A stretch of DNA of 38,342 nt, from assembly GCA_003157875.1 (NCBI GenBank), contig PMKV01000019.1, positions 3,611-41,952 of the forward strand. The letters run 5' to 3'. The notes under the pieces were generated by a model, which was not told the DNA's origin, did no database searches, and worked only from the letters and a program-made list of their open reading frames with translations. Within the stretch, counting starts at the first letter, position 1; every line of letters begins with the position of its first letter. The position numbers and the translations under genes were made by a program. Positions 4,406 to 30,671 of this stretch are shown in pieces. The DNA is from Chloroflexota bacterium. Lineage in GTDB: Bacteria; Chloroflexota; Limnocylindria; Limnocylindrales; CSP1-4.

Positions 4406-6244
4406 ATGACGATTGCTGAGAACCAGGGCGCCACCACCACGGTCGGCGCAGCCCTGGCCGAGGGTTTGGCCCGAGCCGGCGTGAAGATAGCTTTTACCGT
4501 GCCGGGAGAGAGTGTCCTGGGATTGATCGACGGTCTGGCCGCCAACCACATTCGGGTCGTGGCCACCCGTCACGAGGGAGCCGCCGCGTTCATGGCCGCG
4601 GCGGTCGCTCAGCTGACCGGCCGACCGGCCGTGTGCGTTGGTACGCGCGCTCCCGGAGCCACGAACCTGGCCATCGGGCTCCATTCCGCCCGTTCGGACT
4701 CCGCCCCGGTGATCGCCATCGTCGGCGGCGTGCGGCGCGATCTGCAGGGACGCGAGGCCTTTCAGGAGCTCGATGTCGTCCGCGCCTTCGAACCGATCGT
4801 CAAGTGGGCGGCCGAGGTCAAAGATGCCGCCGATGCGGTCGCCATGGTCGAGCGGGCCGTCGCCACGGCCACGAGAGGACGTCCTGGGCCCGTGGTGCTG
4901 GCGGTTCCCGCCGATGTGATGGACGCGACCATTCCGGCCGGCGGGGGCCGTGCCGGGGCAGCTCATCCGGACCACCATCCCGACCCGGATCCGGCCCTGG
5001 TCCGAAAGGTTCTCCATCTGCTCGCCGACTCGCGACGACCTCTGATCCTCGCCGGCGCCGGAGTCCTCCGGGCGCGCAGCACCGACGCCCTGGTTCGCTT
5101 CGCCGAAACCATGCGTGTGCCGGTCGTCTCATCCTGGCGGCGCGGCGATCTCTTCCCCAACGACAATCCGCTCTACCTGGGCATGAGCGGTTCCGGTGCG
5201 CCGGGGAGCGTGCTGGCGCGGCTCCAAGAGGCGGATGCGCTGCTCGTGCTGGGCTGCCGGCTTGGCGAGATCACCACCTATGGTTACCGCGTGCCGGGGC
5301 CCACGACGCGCTGGGCACAGGTAGATATCGAGCCGCGCGGGGCGGGTTCGAGCAACCGGCCGGACGTCGTCATCGCGGCCGACGTGGCCGCTTTCCTGCG
5401 GATGGCGCAGCGAGTTCTGGCCCGGGCCGCCTTCGACGCCGTGTCATTCGACGAGCGGACCGCCGCGAACGCGGTCGATCGCGAAGCCTACGAGGCGAGT
5501 TCGGTCGTGGACGCGGATCCGTTCGACGGGCCGGGCGTCCATCCGGGCCGGGTCGTCGCGACCCTGGCCCGCGTTCTTCCTCCGGAGGCGATCATCACGA
5601 CCGATGCCGGAGACTTCGGCACCTGGGCGGCGCGCGGCTTCCGCTTTCGTCGACCCGGCACGTTCCTCGGTTCGTCGGCTGGGCCCATGGGCTACGGTCT
5701 GCCGGCGGCCATCGGCGCGGCTCTGGCGCGACCCGGCCGTTTGGGCGTCGCGTTGGCCGGCGACGGCGGCTTCGCCACGACCATGGCCGAACTGGAGACC
5801 GCCGTTCGGGAACGCACTCACGTCATCGTCGTGGTCTTCGACAACGGCCGTTACGGCATGATCTGGCGGCAGCAGAAGGAGCGAGGCTCGGTCGGTGGCC
5901 TGGCCACGAGGCTCGGCGCGGTCGACTTCGCGGCCGTCGCGGAGGCTTGCGGCGCACTCGGGCTCACTGTCGGGAGCGACGATGAGTTCGAGCCGGCTCT
6001 ACGGCAGGCGCTCGAATCCGGCAGGCCCGCCCTGTTGCATCTCGCCCTCGATCCGCGTTGGACGACTCCGGACGCCGGCCTGGCATCGGTCGAGATCGAA
6101 GCGATGCCGACCGAGGTGGAGTTCGCCGAGCCCGTGGCCGAGCCGGAGCCCGTGGCCGAGCCGGAGCCCGTGGCCGAGCCCGTGGCCGAGCCGGAGGCCG
6201 AGCTCGAGCCCGTGGCCGAGCCGGAGGCTGTCGACCCCGAGTAG
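4406..6244 (+). CDS. Thiamine-diphosphate-dependent enzyme, acetolactate synthase large-subunit-like
   Basis: A 612-residue ThDP enzyme of the acetolactate synthase/pyruvate oxidase/benzoylformate decarboxylase superfamily, with the usual Pyr, central and PP domains. Visible marks are the ThDP-activating glutamate in RHEGAAAFMA (Glu about 57), the central-domain run starting ALVRKVLHLLADSRRPLILAG, and the diphosphate/Mg motif beginning GDGGF at about 452 and ending near 480 with DNGRYG, where the usual NN is DN. AAK34-type regulatory subunit genes (ilvN) and other branched-chain genes are absent, so true acetolactate synthase activity is doubtful and the substrate is unknown. A strong AAGGAG sits eight bases before the ATG. 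Residues after about 573 form an acidic EPVAEP repeat tail not expected in this family. Confidence 0.82.
   Translation: MTIAENQGATTTVGAALAEGLARAGVKIAFTVPGESVLGLIDGLAANHIRVVATRHEGAAAFMAAAVAQLTGRPAVCVGTRAPGATNLAIGLHSARSDSAPVIAIVGGVRRDLQGREAFQELDVVRAFEPIVKWAAEVKDAADAVAMVERAVATATRGRPGPVVLAVPADVMDATIPAGGGRAGAAHPDHHPDPDPALVRKVLHLLADSRRPLILAGAGVLRARSTDALVRFAETMRVPVVSSWRRGDLFPNDNPLYLGMSGSGAPGSVLARLQEADALLVLGCRLGEITTYGYRVPGPTTRWAQVDIEPRGAGSSNRPDVVIAADVAAFLRMAQRVLARAAFDAVSFDERTAANAVDREAYEASSVVDADPFDGPGVHPGRVVATLARVLPPEAIITTDAGDFGTWAARGFRFRRPGTFLGSSAGPMGYGLPAAIGAALARPGRLGVALAGDGGFATTMAELETAVRERTHVIVVVFDNGRYGMIWRQQKERGSVGGLATRLGAVDFAAVAEACGALGLTVGSDDEFEPALRQALESGRPALLHLALDPRWTTPDAGLASVEIEAMPTEVEFAEPVAEPEPVAEPEPVAEPVAEPEAELEPVAEPEAVDPE
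6127..6238 (+). repeat. In-gene EPVAEP tandem repeats
   Basis: The 3' end of the ThDP enzyme gene is built from imperfect copies of the 18-base unit GAGCCCGTGGCCGAGCCG, encoding EPVAEP-type hexapeptides plus shortened copies. The copies are nearly identical at the DNA level, which points to recent slippage expansion. The resulting tail of about 40 residues is Pro/Glu/Ala-rich and acidic, so it is probably extended and disordered. Confidence 0.85.
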
Positions 6245-6278
6245 GGACCTGCCGCATCCGGGCGCGCGGTTGGCGAGC

Positions 6279-7763
6279 TCAGGATGGTGTCTGAGCCCTG
6301 CGACGTTCGAGGACGAGCGCGCTGCGCCGTTCGTGCAGTCGCATCTCCAGGCCTACCGGGTAGGTGTGCGGGTTGAGCAGGCGGCGGATTGTGGGATGGA
6401 GGCTCGCGATCTGGCCTGCGGCCCTGGCGCGGACATCGTCCAGCGAGGGTGGGGGCGCCGTGCGCCGGCCGCCTCGCATGGCCGGAAGAACCAGCTCCTC
6501 GGGTCTCCAGTCGAGCTCGATGGCCCGCATGTGGAGGGCGTCGGCCGGGTCGACTATTACGTCTCCGTCGGGCGGGGCGGGCAGGTCTTCGTCGTAGATC
6601 ATATCGGCGCGGAACCGTCCGCTGGTGTCGATGAAGCGCCGAACCCCGAGAACGCCCGGTATCGAGATCTTGGCGCTCAATTCGGAGAGCTTCACGGGGT
6701 AGCGCCAGCCCGCATCCGGATCGCAGATCGCGCTCAGCTTGTAGATGGCGCCCAGGGCCGGCTGGTCGTAGCAGGTGTCGAGCCTGGTGCCGACACCCCA
6801 GATGTCGATGCGCGCGCCCTGCTCGCGAAGCGATTCGATCGTGTGCTCATCGAGGTCGTTCGAGGCGACGATCATGGTGTCCTTGAATCCGGCCTGGTCG
6901 AGCATGCGCCGGGCCTCGATCGAGAGATAGGCGAGATCGCCGGAATCGAGACGTATGCCGGCCAGGCTGCCGCCGCGAGCCTTGAGGCGACGGCCCGTTT
7001 CGATGGCGTGTGCCACGCCGATCAGCGAGTCGTATGTGTCGACGAGGAGGGTCACGTTGTCTGGTTGTGCGTCCGCGTAGGCGTCGAAGGCGCGTTGCTC
7101 GTCACCGAAGACCTGGACCCAGGAATGGGCGTGGGTGCCGCGAACTGGTATCCCGAAGAGGCGCCCAGCCAGCACGTTCGACGTCGCGGCCACGCCGCCG
7201 ATGTAGGCCGCCCTTGCCGCGGAGAGCGCGCCGTCCGGACCCTGCGCCCGACGCAGGCCGAACTCCAGCACCGGGCTGCCGCCCGCCGCCTGCACGACCC
7301 GGGCCGCCTTGGTGGCCACGAGTGTCTGAAAGCCGATGACGGTCAGGAGGATGCTCTCGACCAGCTGAGCCTGGATAAGCGGCCCACGAACTCGAAAGAG
7401 CGGCTCGTTGGCGAAGACGACCGTGCCCTCGGGGACGGCATCGACATCGCAGCTGAACTCGAAGGCGCCAAGCCGGTCGAGGAACGGGCGGCCGAATATC
7501 GCAACGCCGCCAGGACTGCGGAGACCCGCGAGGTAGTCGATATCGGTCGCGTCGAAACGCATGCCTTCGAGGACGGCGAGGGCGTCGTCGACGCCGGCCA
7601 TGACGGCGTAGCCACCGCCGAACGGGAGCGTCCGGAAGCTCAACGCGAAGACGGTCTCACGGTCGGCGACGCCGGCGAGCTCGTAGCCGGCGCCCATGGT
7701 CAGCTCGTATAGATCGGTCAGTGTGGCCAGACTGTGCCGGTAGAGGTCAGATACGTGGGACAC
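6279..7763 (-). CDS. pncB: Nicotinate phosphoribosyltransferase
   Basis: A 494-residue enzyme that makes nicotinate mononucleotide from nicotinate and PRPP, the first step of the Preiss-Handler NAD salvage route. Family features: LTDLYELTMGAGY near the start, GGGYAVMAGVDDAL, the signature EFGLRRAQGPDGALSAARAAYIGG is present in pieces (FGLRRAQGPDGALS; AARAAYIGGVAATSN), THAHSWVQVFGDE with the histidine pair, TLLVDTYDS and GIRLDSGDLAYLS. Length is typical of the long bacterial subclass. The GTG start has no good ribosome site and overlaps the previous gene by 17 bases, so it is likely translated by coupling. With PncC at 1741-2253 both enzymes lead to the same product, nicotinate mononucleotide. 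Confidence 0.93.
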   Translation of the reverse strand: MSHVSDLYRHSLATLTDLYELTMGAGYELAGVADRETVFALSFRTLPFGGGYAVMAGVDDALAVLEGMRFDATDIDYLAGLRSPGGVAIFGRPFLDRLGAFEFSCDVDAVPEGTVVFANEPLFRVRGPLIQAQLVESILLTVIGFQTLVATKAARVVQAAGGSPVLEFGLRRAQGPDGALSAARAAYIGGVAATSNVLAGRLFGIPVRGTHAHSWVQVFGDEQRAFDAYADAQPDNVTLLVDTYDSLIGVAHAIETGRRLKARGGSLAGIRLDSGDLAYLSIEARRMLDQAGFKDTMIVASNDLDEHTIESLREQGARIDIWGVGTRLDTCYDQPALGAIYKLSAICDPDAGWRYPVKLSELSAKISIPGVLGVRRFIDTSGRFRADMIYDEDLPAPPDGDVIVDPADALHMRAIELDWRPEELVLPAMRGGRRTAPPPSLDDVRARAAGQIASLHPTIRRLLNPHTYPVGLEMRLHERRSALVLERRRAQTPS

Positions 7764-8361
7764 GGCGGACTCGTAGTGGTTCCTGCGTCGAGCTTGGCTT
7801 TGTTTCGGATGCGGTCGAGGCGGGTGGGGCCGTCAACGGCGCCTCGGGGACTGCCGGGCGAGGGGTGTCGTTGACGCTCTCCGAAATTGCCTCCAGGGTG
7901 CCGATGATCGTGGCCACGAGGAGCCCGACGGTCGGCTCGATGACGACGATCGGTTCCAGCGCCCCGGGTCGATGGCTTTCGAACATCGAGACCTCGCCGG
8001 GGTAGTTTGCCTCCAGGCTCCAGCGATCCAATAGCCCCAGGGCGGCATCGACCGCGCGCCCGGCAACCGCGCAGAGATCGGAGTCGTCCCCGCGGATGAT
8101 TGACTCGGGTTCGCCACCCGCCCGTAGCGGCAGGGGGGTCGGCAGGGCCACCAACAGGTCGCCGATGAGCATCTCGGCTTCATCGCTAAGACCGGCGGCG
8201 CGGCGGAAGACGCGCCCGCCGGTCGCCGGCCAGTTCGTTTCGATGCGGGTGCGCAGCGACACCAGGCGCATGCGACAGGTGTCGACGCTGTCGAGGGCGC
8301 GCAGCTCGGCGATCCTGCCGGCCAATCTACGCCCGGTCCCGGACCCAGGCTGCCCTTCCAC
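7747..8361 (-). CDS. Hypothetical protein upstream of pncB
   Basis: A 204-residue protein I do not recognise. It begins at a GTG preceded by an excellent ribosome site (GGAGGTGA a few bases upstream), good evidence that it is real. The first 150 residues look helical and soluble, with Arg/Leu-rich stretches (RLAGRIAELRAL; DEAEMLIGDLLVALPTPLPLR) and one moderately hydrophobic segment near 140-155 (PIVVIEPTVGLLVATIIGTL), which could be a single membrane anchor. The last 45 residues are Pro/Ala/Thr/Ser-rich and probably disordered. It overlaps the pncB start by 17 bases in another frame, so the two are likely co-transcribed and coupled, but nothing ties it chemically to NAD salvage. Confidence 0.65.
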   Translation of the reverse strand: MEGQPGSGTGRRLAGRIAELRALDSVDTCRMRLVSLRTRIETNWPATGGRVFRRAAGLSDEAEMLIGDLLVALPTPLPLRAGGEPESIIRGDDSDLCAVAGRAVDAALGLLDRWSLEANYPGEVSMFESHRPGALEPIVVIEPTVGLLVATIIGTLEAISESVNDTPRPAVPEAPLTAPPASTASETKPSSTQEPLRVRRVPRI

Positions 8362-8659
8362 GGCTCACCTCCAAGTGGCCATATACGCGAACTCGATGCA
8401 GAATCCGCGTATCCAGCATAGCGGGGCCGGGTCATGGTGACGATGGCCGAGGCTGCCGACCGATGGAGTCGCCCCAGGTGCGACTGGCCTGTTGCGGGCG
8501 CGCCGCCGGAAGCGGGCGGAACGGGGTGCGGATGGACACTGATCCCGGTGTGCCTGCCGCGACGGCCGGCAACCACGCGCATGGAGACGAGGCCGGAGGC
8601 GACCCCGCCGGATCAGTCCTGGGTCGGGGCCGGTCTGAGCCAGCCGGCGCCGCAGAGCC
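8362..8659. other. Intergenic stretch, no feature recognised
   Basis: About 300 bases between two leftward genes. Short open frames exist on both strands but lack ribosome sites and look like chance products of high GC. It probably holds the promoter for the 8361-to-6279 gene pair; I cannot point to -35/-10 boxes. Confidence 0.4.
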
Positions 8660-9376
8660 TCAGGCCCCGGGGTGTCGATGCCGGGTCTGTTCGGTGATCG
8701 GGCGGCCGAACCGATGATGGCCGTGGTTCCAATGCTGTGGGTGGTGGCTGTGGTGGTGTCCGGGAGACTCGAGCTGGATCCCCCAGCCCTCGAAATGGTC
8801 TTCGAGACTCTGGAGAGACGAAGTCGGCCACATGGTCGTCGAGACCGTCACCGTGGCGGAGTCGCCCGCCATCTGAAGGTGGTTGGAGCAGCTCTGCGCC
8901 GCATGCACCGTAGACCGAGGCCCAATCAGTGTGCCGCGGCGGCCCAGCCAAACGTCCGTCCATCGACGCACGTATACCGTTCCGGCCCGTAGCTCCACGT
9001 CGTGGCTGAAGAAGGCGCCGATCCAGACGAGCAATAACCATGCCGGGAGGGGAGCCAGGACCAGCAGCATCGACAGCCCGTCTCCCCCGCCGCTGACCCG
9101 GATGCCACGGAGTCCCAAGAGAGCGACAGCTACGCCGACCAGCGCCATGAGCCAAGCCCAGCCCTGGACAACCGGCGGGTTCACGCAGGAGCCGAGTTCG
9201 TCGAGTTCGGCTTGGACCCGGTCCGGTGGAACGTAGTAGGAGGGCGTGGACCAGCCGAAGTAGAAGTACTGTCTGGGCGCGACCCACCCCGTATGGCGGT
9301 GCCTCGGGTCCAGCCAGCGCGGCGGAGGGACCGGCGAACCGAGCAATCTATCGAGCAACCATGAGTGCGCGGCCAT
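8660..9376 (-). CDS. Membrane protein with two helices, PH-like region and His-rich tail
   Basis: A 238-residue protein of unknown function. The ATG at 9376 is preceded by AGAGGAA at correct spacing, so I prefer it to a longer frame upstream. Layout: about 65 polar residues (WLDPRHRHTGWVAPRQYFYF), a coiled/aromatic stretch, two adjacent membrane helices (WAWLMALVGVAVALLGL and LSMLLVLAPLPAWLLLVWIG), then about 75 residues of alternating beta pattern (DVELRAGTVYVRRWTDVWLG; ATVTVSTTMWPTSSL). That last part resembles small PH-like domains that follow paired helices in bacterial membrane proteins; this is a shape-based guess. The C-terminus carries a histidine cluster (HHHSHHPQHWNHGHH) of the kind that can bind Zn, Ni or Cu. 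It is divergent from the diguanylate cyclase. Confidence 0.6.
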   Translation of the reverse strand: MAAHSWLLDRLLGSPVPPPRWLDPRHRHTGWVAPRQYFYFGWSTPSYYVPPDRVQAELDELGSCVNPPVVQGWAWLMALVGVAVALLGLRGIRVSGGGDGLSMLLVLAPLPAWLLLVWIGAFFSHDVELRAGTVYVRRWTDVWLGRRGTLIGPRSTVHAAQSCSNHLQMAGDSATVTVSTTMWPTSSLQSLEDHFEGWGIQLESPGHHHSHHPQHWNHGHHRFGRPITEQTRHRHPGA

Positions 9377-26053: not shown

Positions 26054-26938
26054 CTAACAGGACTGGAGGATGACCCAGGCGCGATCGAAGGCACGCCCCG
26101 CGGCGTCCGCTTCCTTGATCCAGTAGTAGATCACGCCCGTGTCGCCCCAGTCGGTGCCGAGCCTGCCGTCGGTGTCCACCTGCAGTAGCAGTCGCCAATC
26201 GCGGCCGCATCGCTTCAGTTCAGCGTCGATGTCAGGGTGCTTGCTTGACTCCCAGGCGAGGCCGCGAGACAGCATCTCGCAATCGGCCGGCATGGCGTTC
26301 TGAACCTGGTCCGGATGGCCGAAGAGCCGATGCGTCGGCACATGCGTGACGCCGTCGGGGTGTCCGCTCAGTCGATCCCCGAGTTCGAAGAAGCCCGCAT
26401 ATCTGGGCTCGACGATCGGATCTGGTGGCCAACAGGGGCCCAGGATTCTGCCGATCTCATTGTTTTCGGCGCAAGGAAGGGTCCATTCGGTTCGATACCG
26501 GACGACGTGGGGCGTGAAGACGCAGCTCGGCGCCAGATCCGCTGGTGGCCGCCGCGCCTCGAGATCGCTCAAGTCTGCAAACCAGACCACCCGCCATCGA
26601 GCCCGATCTTCCAGGGCCGAACTCCACGGCGGATCGTCCGCGTCGTAGAACACCGACAACATGCCCGAGTCTGGCAGCCAGCTGACGATGTCGAGCCGGG
26701 CGACCTCTTCCAGACGAATCTGGCCGACGAACGCGAGCGCCCCGCCGTCATTCCGCATCGGCCATTCGAAGCCGGAAGGCATGGCCGGATCGCCGCCCAG
26801 CCGTGCTCCGAGGAGTTCGCCGGGTCCGTCATCCAGCAGGATCCGGGCCGAGGGCAGAGCAACCGCGGCTAGCTGGTCGGCCCAGGGTCCCAGGCCCGAT
26901 TCTCTGGCGAGTTCCGCTACTCGATCTCGACCGTCCAT
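26054..26938 (-). CDS. DUF1963 (YwqG-like) protein
   Basis: A 294-residue protein of the DUF1963/YwqG family. Marks are the early RILLDDGPGELLGARLGG, DPAMPSGFEWPMRNDGGALA, FVGQIRLEEVARLD, the GMLSVFYDADDPPW segment, and the late SGHPDGVTHVPTH ... LLLQVDTDGRLGTDWGDTGV block with VIYYWIKEADAAGRAFDRAW. Family function is unknown; members are soluble and often lie in defence or mobile regions. The ATG at 26938 begins where homology begins; the frame stays open to 27103 but that part is not family-like. Confidence 0.85.
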   Translation of the reverse strand: MDGRDRVAELARESGLGPWADQLAAVALPSARILLDDGPGELLGARLGGDPAMPSGFEWPMRNDGGALAFVGQIRLEEVARLDIVSWLPDSGMLSVFYDADDPPWSSALEDRARWRVVWFADLSDLEARRPPADLAPSCVFTPHVVRYRTEWTLPCAENNEIGRILGPCWPPDPIVEPRYAGFFELGDRLSGHPDGVTHVPTHRLFGHPDQVQNAMPADCEMLSRGLAWESSKHPDIDAELKRCGRDWRLLLQVDTDGRLGTDWGDTGVIYYWIKEADAAGRAFDRAWVILQSC

Positions 26939-26947
26939 GGCTTCAAC

Positions 26948-26953
26948 TATATG
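26948..26953 (-). promoter_or_regulatory. Candidate -10 box for the DUF1963 gene
   Basis: On the minus strand TATAGT lies ten bases upstream of the ATG. It differs from TATAAT by one base and would place the transcription start almost at the ATG, implying a leaderless or nearly leaderless mRNA, consistent with the missing ribosome site. No good -35 is seen at 16-18 bases. Confidence 0.3.
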
Positions 26954-27130
26954 GGATCGTCTGGGGTGCCACGGGCGTTCAACAACCACGCCGGCGAGTT
27001 CTAATTCACTGCCGATCGGTAAGGCGCCCATGGGCGCCGAGTGACGCCGCGGGATCTGTCGCGCGTCAGGCGCTGAGGCCAAACCGCGAGGCCGGCCGAA
27101 CACCGCTGACCCAACAGGAGCTCGAACCGC

Positions 27131-28449
27131 GTGTCGCTGTCAACGACTATCAAGTCCATCCAGGACGTCATGCGCAAGGACGTCGGCGTTGATGGGGACG
27201 CCCAGCGGATCGGCCAGCTGACATGGCTCCTCTTCCTCAAGATCTGGGACGACCGGGAGCAAGAGCTAGAGCTAATCGAGCCCGGCTTCAGGTCGCCTCT
27301 GGTCGGAGTCACCTGGCACGAGAATGGCGTTGTCCGTCGCGCTGATGACCTTCGCTGGCGCACGTGGGCAGCTGACTCAGAAGGAATGACGGGCGACACG
27401 CTCATCAACTTCGCCGAGCAAACACTCTTTCCGGCGCTCAAGGGAATGGACGTCGGCCCCAATGTAGATGCCCTGGGGGAGGGGACCGGGCTAGCGAGCA
27501 CCCTGCGCAGGCGTCGCCTCCTCGTCAGGAGCGTATTTGAGGATGCTTATCAGTACATGAAGTCTGGGACCCTACTCCGCCAGGTGATCAATCGACTCCA
27601 GGCGGACATCGACTTCAACGACGCGCGTAATCGTCATCTGTTCGGGGACCTCTACGAGCAGATTCTCCGAGACCTGCAGAGTGCCGGCAACGCCGGCGAG
27701 TACTACACGCCCAGGGCGGTGACGCAGTTTGCCGTTGCGATGTCGAATCCCAGGCTCGGCGAAAAGGTCCTAGACCCTGCCTGTGGAACCGGAGGCTTCC
27801 TCGCTGGCTCGATTGAGCACGGCAACACCTTGGCCAGGCCTCTGCGCGACATCTCAACACGTGACCGCGTGGATGTGATCCTCACGAATCCGCCCTTCGG
27901 TGGAATAGAGGAGGACGGAATAGAGAACAACTTCCCTGTCGATGTTCGTACCCGCGAGACCGCTGATCTGTTCCTTGTGATGATCATGGAACTTCTCAAG
28001 CCGGGCGGCAGAGCAGCGGTGGTGCTTCCGGATGGGACTCTCTTCGGGGAAGGCGTGAAGACACGGATCAAGGAGCGTTTGCTCGCGGACTGCAATCTCC
28101 ACACGATCGTTCGGCTGCCAGCAGGGGTCTTCGCCCCCTAGAGAAGGGCACGCCAACGGTCGATGTCTGGTACTACGAACACCCGTACCCAGATGGCGTC
28201 GGGTCCTATTCGAAGACCAGACCGATGCGCGTCGAGGAATTCGACCCAGAGACTGAATGGTGGCACGATCGTCGCGAGACCGCCCAAGCCTGGAAAGTAA
28301 GCATCGCTCAGATTCGAGAGCGCAGGTACAACCTCGACATCCCGAATCCCAACAAGCCAAGCCCGGAACACGGCGACTCATTGGCGCTTCAGCGTCGAGT
28401 CGCCGAGGCTTCCGCGAAGGAAACAGGGCTACTAGATGACCTGGCTCGA
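27131..28449 (+). pseudogene. hsdM: Decayed type I restriction-modification methyltransferase subunit HsdM
   Basis: Clear HsdM sequence (LFLKIWDDREQELE; NAGEYYTPRAVTQFAV; motif I DPACGTGGF; motif IV NPPFGG; ETADLFLVMIMELLKPGGRA; GVKTRIKERLLADCNLHTIV), carrying several lesions. Between motif I (27773) and the RHGN-type block (27820) only a few residues separate GFLAGSIEH from GNTLARPLRD, where family members have about 50 more; part of the SAM-binding fold is missing. At 28136-28141 the frame stops just after GVFAP; the expected 11-residue TGIKTNLLFF-like segment is gone (about 31 bases), shifting the frame. HsdM sequence resumes at 28141 (KGTPTVDVWYYEHPYP; KPMR-like; QAWKVSI) in the other frame and runs without a stop into hsdS. 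Catalysis is unlikely. G+C is visibly lower than in neighbours. Confidence 0.85.
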
Positions 28450-29328
28450 ATGCTGGAACACGCCTCAGAGGGCTTCAGCCTGCCCCGCGATGGCATTCGC
28501 GCCGGTCTCCAAGCCGTAGTTGGTGCCCCGGATGGAATCGCATACCTTCGACGGATCGTTATGAGGCTGGCAGTGAGCGGAGCGCTGGTGCCTCAGGATG
28601 TGACTGACGAGCCGGGTGCAATCCTATTGCAGCGCATTCGGCGCACACGGACGAAGCTCGTCAAAGACCATTTCATTCACGATGCGATAGTCCTTCCAGC
28701 CCCATCAGCTCGCGATTTCGCGTTCCAACTACCCCCGCGATGGGCGTCTGCGCGGTTGTCAGAAGTCGCCGCGGTCCTGGATTTCCGCCGGGAGCCTGTC
28801 AACGCCACCGAACGCCAGCGGAGGATCGCCGGCAAGCCGGCCGACCAACTCTACCCGTACTACGGAGCGACGCAGCAGCAAGGCTGGATAGACGACTATC
28901 TATTCGATGAGGAGTTGGTTCTCCTCGGCGAGGATGGAGTTCCATTTCTAGACCCACTTCGCCCGAAGGCATACCTGGTCTCGGGCAAGTCATGGGTCAA
29001 CAACCATGCCCACGCCATCAGCGGCATCGAGATGTCCAATCCGTACCTGCTGCATTGGCTCAACAGCTTCGACTACAGCGGCCGGGTCACGGGGACCACT
29101 CGCGCGAAACTCAACCAGTTCCGTGTGAACGACATCCCGCTACCTGTTCCACCGAGGGCTGAGCAGGACCGGATCGTCGCTTGCGTCGCTGAGTTCATCG
29201 ACGTTCTCAACCGGTTGCGGGAGCTGCACGAAGCGATCAGCACGGCGAGTACCGAACTCGCGAGAGCGCTTCTGCATCAGGCTACGAAGCCAGTGAGCAC
29301 CGCTCGGAATGCCGATGGGCCCGCCTGA
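28450..29328 (+). CDS. hsdS: Type I restriction-modification specificity subunit HsdS, half-size
   Basis: The frame is shared with the shifted hsdM tail and has no stop between them; I place an independent start at ATG 28450, giving 292 residues. The N-terminal APDGIAYLRRIVMRLAVSGA, LVPQDVTDEPGAILLQRIRR is the typical leading conserved region. One target-recognition domain follows (FQLPPRWASARLSEV ... YYGATQQQGWIDDYLF ... KSWVNNHAHAI ... NPYLLHWLNS), then the conserved PVPPRAEQDRIVACV helix. Full HsdS proteins have two such units, so this is half-size: either a homodimerising single-domain form or a deletion product. No hsdR lies nearby, so restriction is not possible from this locus alone. 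The domain itself looks intact. Confidence 0.75.
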   Translation: MLEHASEGFSLPRDGIRAGLQAVVGAPDGIAYLRRIVMRLAVSGALVPQDVTDEPGAILLQRIRRTRTKLVKDHFIHDAIVLPAPSARDFAFQLPPRWASARLSEVAAVLDFRREPVNATERQRRIAGKPADQLYPYYGATQQQGWIDDYLFDEELVLLGEDGVPFLDPLRPKAYLVSGKSWVNNHAHAISGIEMSNPYLLHWLNSFDYSGRVTGTTRAKLNQFRVNDIPLPVPPRAEQDRIVACVAEFIDVLNRLRELHEAISTASTELARALLHQATKPVSTARNADGPA

Positions 29329-29399
29329 ACATCTCTAGGACATTTCCATGGGACTTTACAAGGGACAGGTCCGCTCCTGGCGAACGGACATAACCTCTC

Positions 29400-29573
29400 T
29401 TATCGGAAGTAGTATCCCAGCCAAACGAGGTCGATCTGGCTCGGTCTCCTACGCTCGCCGCTCCTGAGGGTGTCGCTCGATCTGCTTATGCGCTGGTTGC
29501 TGACGCCGAGCAATATCCCGGTGTCGCGCGACGTGTAACCGGAATTGCGGAGCTCGCGGACGGCGTGGCGCAT
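29400..29573 (-). pseudogene. Remnant of a helix-turn-helix (HicB-antitoxin-like C-terminus) gene
   Basis: The minus-strand frame reads MRHAVRELRNSGYTSRDTGI then LLGVSNQRISR, a clear Fis/HicB-tail-like helix-turn-helix of the xxRDIGxLLGxSxQRIS kind. After QRIS it continues into unrelated sequence (SSDTLRSGERRR ...) and no proper N-terminal domain is found upstream. I read it as the degraded 3' end of an antitoxin-type gene; a very short real protein cannot be excluded. Confidence 0.45.
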
Positions 29574-29655
29574 GGCCGCGGGCGGCGAACGGTCCGGACC
29601 CTGGGGTGACGCGGCCCGCCGCGCTCGGCGCAAACGGCGGGCCGCGGTGTGACGG

Positions 29656-29679
29656 CAACGAAACGCCCGAAGGAACCGC
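29656..29679 (+). repeat. Repeat P, copy 1
   Basis: A 24-base segment with only two mismatches to 30773-30796; the last 16 bases (CGCCCGAAGGAACCGC, 29664-29679) are identical in both copies. Same orientation. Confidence 0.8.
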
Positions 29680-29732
29680 GACCCCGCATCGTTCGGCCGA
29701 TCCGAGAATCGGTCGAGTCGTTCGGCTTCTCG

Positions 29733-29837
29733 TGGCCCCTCCGGGCAATGCCGACTCTAGGCCGATAGGAGCGCTATGCCAACGGCTTTTTCCACCTGTT
29801 TCGTAACTCAAGACGGGGCGCGGGGGAACTGTCCACG
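29733..29837 (+). repeat. Repeat Q, copy 1
   Basis: Diverged copy of 31044-31148, aligning without gaps over 105 bases. Shared blocks: TGGCCCCTCCGGGCAA at position 1, a TAG block near 26, TTTTCCACC at 56 (TTATCCACC in copy 2), TTT near 67 and TGTCCAC at 98. Identity between the blocks is low, but all spacings are equal. Confidence 0.75.
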
Positions 29838-29874
29838 ATTCATGCACACGGACCGCGGTGGGCCGGGCGAAGGC

Positions 29875-29907
29875 GGGGCTAACCCGGGGCTAACCCGGGG
29901 CTAACCC
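29875..29907. repeat. Three 11-base tandem repeats
   Basis: GGGGCTAACCC occurs three times without spacer (29875-29885, 29886-29896, 29897-29907), ending six bases past the stop of the leftward mannosyltransferase gene. Each unit is nearly self-complementary (GGG..CCC), so the array can fold into several hairpins and could act as a transcript end on the minus strand. Confidence 0.85.
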
Positions 29908-29912
29908 GAGTG

Positions 29913-30671
29913 TCAGGCCTCCGTCTTGAGGCCGCGCCGGCGGCGCCGGGTCAGTGTCGAAAGTCGCAGCGCCACGACCAGCAAGAGCGCCTCCATGAAA
30001 ATGTTCATGCTCATCTTGGAGGTCCCCACGCGCCGCTCCTCGAAGGTGATCGGCACCTCGACCACGCGCGCTCCGGCCATGCGAGCCCGAAACGTCGTCT
30101 CGATCTGGAAGGCGTAGCCGCCGGCGTGCAATCGGTCGAGGTCGATCTGGCGCAGCGCGGCCGCGCGCCATGCCTTGAAGCCACCCGTCAGGTCGTGATA
30201 CGGCATGAGCAGAACGATCTGGGAGAAGACGCTGCCGCCGCGGCTGACGAACCGCCGCAGGAAGTTCCAGCGCGGAATCTGTCCGCCCTTGACGTAGCGG
30301 GACCCAAGAACCAGGTCGGCCGTGCCGCTCCTGAGCGGCTCGAGCAGCGAAGGCAGAAAGCGGACCGGATGGCTGAAGTCGGCGTCTATCTGGACCACGA
30401 TGTCGGCGTCGCGGGCCAGCAGGTCCTTGAATGCGGCCACGTAGGCCCGCCCGAGGCCCTGCTTGGCCGATCGGTGCATGACCGCGATTGCATTGTTGCC
30501 TTTGGCCATCACGTCGGCCAGCTCGCCCGTTCCGTCGGGGGAACCGTCGTCGACGATCAGGACGTGGGCGTCTGGCACCGCACCGAGGATTGCGTCGACG
30601 ATCGGGCCGACGTTCTCGCGTTCGTTGTAGGTCGGGACGATGATCCAGATGCTCGGACTGGCGGGCGGCAT
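29913..30671 (-). CDS. Polyprenol monophosphomannose synthase-like GT2 glycosyltransferase
   Basis: A 252-residue GT2 enzyme of the dolichol-phosphate mannosyltransferase group. Marks: IWIIVPTYNERENVGPIVDA, ILGAVPDAHVLIVDDGSPDGTG, the nucleotide-metal motif in VVQIDADFSHP, DLVLGSRYVKGG, and PYHDLTGGFKAWRAAAL. It should move mannose (or glucose) from GDP/UDP sugar to a polyprenyl phosphate at the inner membrane face, feeding protein or glycolipid glycosylation outside. The C-terminus has a weakly hydrophobic stretch (FMEALLLVVALRLSTL) followed by RRRRR, but no full pair of helices. The gene stands alone between two repeat-bearing non-coding blocks. Confidence 0.9.
   Translation of the reverse strand: MPPASPSIWIIVPTYNERENVGPIVDAILGAVPDAHVLIVDDGSPDGTGELADVMAKGNNAIAVMHRSAKQGLGRAYVAAFKDLLARDADIVVQIDADFSHPVRFLPSLLEPLRSGTADLVLGSRYVKGGQIPRWNFLRRFVSRGGSVFSQIVLLMPYHDLTGGFKAWRAAALRQIDLDRLHAGGYAFQIETTFRARMAGARVVEVPITFEERRVGTSKMSMNIFMEALLLVVALRLSTLTRRRRRGLKTEA

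Follow-up and report, generated by a model that had tools for sequence, protein, structure and literature searches.

Is a locus in which hsdM has no hsdR beside it and runs on into hsdS a dead, acquired type I restriction-modification system, or is part of it kept as a small DNA-binding protein? We addressed this question for a pair of genes in the window, the whole stretch of 38,342 nucleotides of Chloroflexota DNA that was analysed. The features concerned are the following.

26054..27103, minus strand: DUF1963 gene, at the position where relatives of this hsdM carry hsdR
27131..28141, plus strand: hsdM remnant, 336 codons, HsdM_N and most of N6_Mtase, terminated by TAG 28139-28141
27818..27821, plus strand: deletion junction 1, in frame, 48-49 codons, from alignment and DNA comparison with L039, L030 and L122
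28139..28142, plus strand: deletion junction 2, 31 bases gone, giving the TAG and a change of frame, from DNA comparison with L039, L030 and L122
28141..28490, plus strand: hsdM C-terminal tail in the new frame, PF02384 positions 237-307, no stop before hsdS
28480..29328, plus strand: half-size hsdS, one target-recognition domain (TRD, of the TRD1 type of relatives), helical region, TGA; PF01420 (Methylase_S)
29400..29633, minus strand: small fragment, 77 aa ORF (RHAVRELR..SGYTSRDTGILLGVSNQRIS), beside the acquired segment and recurring here in sister genomes

Two deletions in hsdM

The hsdM remnant starts with GTG at 27131, in line with the start of its closest relative, L039 (67% identity), and matches the Pfam families PF12161 (HsdM_N) and PF02384 (N6_Mtase). 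The surviving HsdM shares 51-67% identity with the R-M-S loci of relatives such as L039 and L123 to L129; we found no relative with an identity above about 67%. We placed its deletions against intact HsdM from nine relatives. An earlier note on this DNA had proposed that about 50 residues were lost between motifs I and IV, which read DPACGTGGF and NPPF, and the alignment bears this out with an in-frame loss of 48-49 codons: 17 residues separate DPACGTGGF and NTLARP in the window, and 65-66 separate them in the intact proteins of L039, L030 and L122. In L039, CAC flanks the deleted segment at both ends, forming a short microhomology. The second proposed lesion, a frame-shifting deletion of about 31 bases, proved to be exactly that size, since precisely 31 bases present in the relatives' DNA are missing at 28140/28141; in L039 they are those lying between TA(C) and GAG, and in the relatives they encode most of Y-T-x-I-x-T-N-x-L-F-F. 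As judged from these alignments, the two deletions remove part of the predicted AdoMet-binding fold and break the frame, leaving HsdM with an incomplete core for AdoMet binding and catalysis. We rejected a programmed frameshift at 28139, since the 31 conserved bases are gone.

An assembly artefact would offer a simpler account, in which the organism's hsdM-hsdS is intact and the draft dropped two pieces of it, for instance from a strain mixture. The source assembly is a 75%-complete draft in 185 contigs, so that misassembly of hsdM is possible, a point that we count against reading the locus as decayed, and the surviving parts of hsdM are highly conserved. However, the two separate deletions concur with the loss of the M/S frame step, of the second TRD and of hsdR, the rest of the assembly contains no other copy of the window hsdS, and no long repeat lies at the deletion junctions in relatives. 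We consider such an artefact improbable.

The hsdM tail and a half-size HsdS

A single frame, open from 28141 across the HsdM tail and HsdS, closes at TGA 29326-29328 and contains ATG codons at 28225 and 28456. Its tail portion is 64% identical to the tail of L039 and 55% to that of G080, a genome of another genus. The HsdS portion carries a DNA specificity domain (PF01420) with one TRD followed by the terminal helix, whereas the HsdS of most relatives has two TRDs; it is 49-58% identical to the first half of theirs, and no remnant of a second TRD was found downstream in 29329-29912. The description of an hsdM tail running without a stop into a half-size, one-TRD HsdS was therefore correct. 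That HsdS shows no lesion, as was also claimed, holds only as long as two losses are disregarded, that of the second TRD and that of the stop and frame step of hsdM.

M and S are homologous to type I subunits and keep the operon order M-S, as expected from descent. Relatives in the phylum have the order R-M-S, an HsdM of about 486 aa and an HsdS of mostly 430-615 aa; in nearly all the intact ones M and S are separate genes, HsdS has two TRDs and hsdR lies upstream, and where hsdM and hsdS are adjacent the two overlap in different frames in most cases. The R-M-S loci of L039 and L123 to L129 resemble the window in having an HsdM with HsdM_N and N6_Mtase and HsdS directly after it, but in the window hsdR is absent, hsdM has two deletions, M and S share one frame and there is a single TRD. 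No M-S fusion like this one was matched among viral contigs, and a plasmid search gave only matches below 60% identity. Two other loci have features of the same kind. L036 (Binatia) has an hsdM with an in-frame stop (5604-7061) and, about 670 bases downstream, a single-TRD hsdS (7734-8789), and appears as another decaying relative; L046 (Moraniibacteriota) has an open frame of about 828 codons (6447-8930) that encodes a natural fusion of HsdM with an HsdS of two TRDs.

Fused and single-TRD subunits are both known from working systems. In the engineered EcoKI M-S fusion ('type IMS'), which is active, the HsdM tail is continuous with HsdS as it is here (PMC3510504), and single-TRD HsdS function as dimers in several systems (PMC3874165; PMC6158711). 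The truncated or half HsdS of EcoR124I delta50, EcoDXXI::Tn5, NgoAV and 'type 1 1/2' methyltransferases such as M.AhdI have a single TRD and in principle can dimerise, and the window HsdS is like them in this (PMC3874165). The HsdM of the window is disrupted and joined to a one-TRD HsdS, unlike the EcoKI fusion, and the other systems have an intact HsdM and form methyltransferases of symmetric specificity (PMC3874165). A type 1 1/2 methyltransferase combines a single-TRD S with an active M, and here the one TRD is present but M is disrupted. Since both the M-S fusion and the single TRD have working precedents, neither alone proves decay; the two hsdM deletions do.

Because fusion and single TRD are both of known kinds, they may predate the decay. 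In a variant compatible with decay, both would be ancestral, belonging to a once-working HsdM~half-HsdS fusion (type IMS or 'type 1 1/2') in which hsdM alone decayed later. The activity of the engineered EcoKI fusion (PMC3510504) and of single-TRD dimers (PMC3874165) argues for it, as do the single-TRD HsdS of L036 and the M-S fusion of L046, but no intact close relative of this architecture was found, the hsdM of L036 itself contains a stop, and relatives with adjacent genes have overlapping, out-of-frame M/S junctions. This order of events seems rather unlikely.

Absence of a linked hsdR

A functional type I system would have a linked hsdR, and a search of the contig with the HsdR of five relatives gave no match. 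The earlier statement that there is no hsdR is thus right for the contig and wrong for the genome: two further type I loci, both including hsdR, lie on C135 and C6. Partnership with these two systems was judged unlikely, as their HsdM are only about 30-32% identical to that of the window. The DUF1963 gene found in place of hsdR has a weak match (32% over 83 aa, on a different contig) in only one other genome of the genus.

Acquisition at a variable site

The G+C content is 60.5% in hsdM and 60.6% in the tail and HsdS, against 67.3% for the whole window, whose lowest 1-kb value (59.8%) falls at hsdM-hsdS; GC3 is 69-74% at the pair against 81-87% in neighbouring core genes. The drop in G+C remarked on earlier is therefore real. 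We also compared the interval bounded by the glycosyltransferase gene (29913-30671) on one flank and ribD/relBE on the other in 18 genomes of the same genus, some stretches of which stop at contig ends: none of the 18 has the pair, even as a decayed copy, at the syntenic site. The low G+C and this absence together show that the pair was acquired. With the contig's lack of hsdR and the fold- and frame-breaking hsdM deletions, they support the view of a dead acquired system that the note had put forward as one of two options.

We extended the survey of the region downstream of hflX to another 60 genomes from the family, many of whose stretches end at contig ends, and found no copy of the window hsdM-hsdS. 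In G080, a 5'-truncated hsdM tail with a two-TRD hsdS occupies the same place in the same orientation. This locus (L111, on contig C80, 7285-9384) has no hsdM body, and its truncation point carries a 7-bp inverted repeat, CGGTAAC-GCATTA-GTTACCG. In G038 the site holds a short piece of another, different HsdM (L100, 4475-4723, minus strand), and next to it the small ORF of 29400-29633 is present again. Copies of that ORF (HAVRELR..SGYTSRDTGILLGVSNQRIS), which looks like a terminal piece of a small DNA-binding protein or an antitoxin, occur in L087, L088, L091, L093-L095, L097, L100 and L103, one or two near the site. With type I remnants in both G080 and G038, the site downstream of hflX looks like a variable region, a turnover hotspot in which type I genes are gained and then decay.

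Is the HsdS half retained?

The other option of the note was that the HsdM tail and HsdS are kept as a minimal DNA-binding protein. In a leave-one-out comparison, the window hsdM breaks 4 of 159 invariant HsdM positions, and intact genes, each left out in turn, break 0-7 of 176-183; for HsdS, the window breaks 1 of 25 invariant columns, in an alignment in which the L035 row is in the wrong frame and reduces the number of such columns, so that we give this HsdS figure no weight. The remainder of a dead hsdM is thus as conserved as intact genes, which makes a lesion-free HsdS uninformative on retention and points to a recent decay. The proposal, whose sole ground was the lack of lesions in HsdS, is left unsupported, as hsdM outside its deletions is equally clean.

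The idea that tail and single-TRD HsdS are kept, whether as a small protein that binds DNA or as a decoy, could draw on the open frame 28141-29328 with its ATG codons at 28225 and 28456, and on the presence of an hsdM tail with hsdS at the hflX site in another genus. Yet selection is not visible when the dead part is just as clean, and in an R-M-S order losses from the 5' side spare the 3' part anyway; moreover, the HsdS of G080 has two TRDs and is only about 28% identical to that of the window, and neither form occurs at the hflX site in any other genome surveyed. We regard retention as very improbable. More improbable still is the bolder form, in which tail and hsdS were repeatedly retained at the hotspot in two genera as a partnerless DNA-binding protein and are not debris; if true, the retained unit would interfere with phage or with other type I systems.

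Discussion

The best explanation, to which we assign a probability of about 0.88, is that the locus is a recent pseudogene of an acquired type I restriction-modification operon, produced by ordinary gene decay. An R-M-S operon was acquired into the variable site that follows hflX and its neighbouring glycosyltransferase gene, presumably together with hsdR, as its relatives suggest. Measured against them, it has lost hsdR, 48-49 codons of the AdoMet-binding core of hsdM, 31 frame-breaking bases of the same gene, the second TRD of HsdS and the frame step between M and S. The open hsdS frame and the in-frame nature of the first hsdM deletion count against this explanation, as does the early stop of some same-genus stretches at contig ends.

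Given the fold established for gamma-class methyltransferases, we infer that the methyltransferase must be inactive, neither methylating nor supporting restriction, because the segment after motif I is gone and the domain is severed from its tail. A protein running from 28225 or 28456 to 29325, if translated, would be a non-catalytic, partnerless DNA-binding remnant. Read as a decayed operon, the locus would be a clean, recent example of the death of a type I system at a variable site; its contribution to comparisons of M-S fusion and TRD loss is a small one, and it alters no model.
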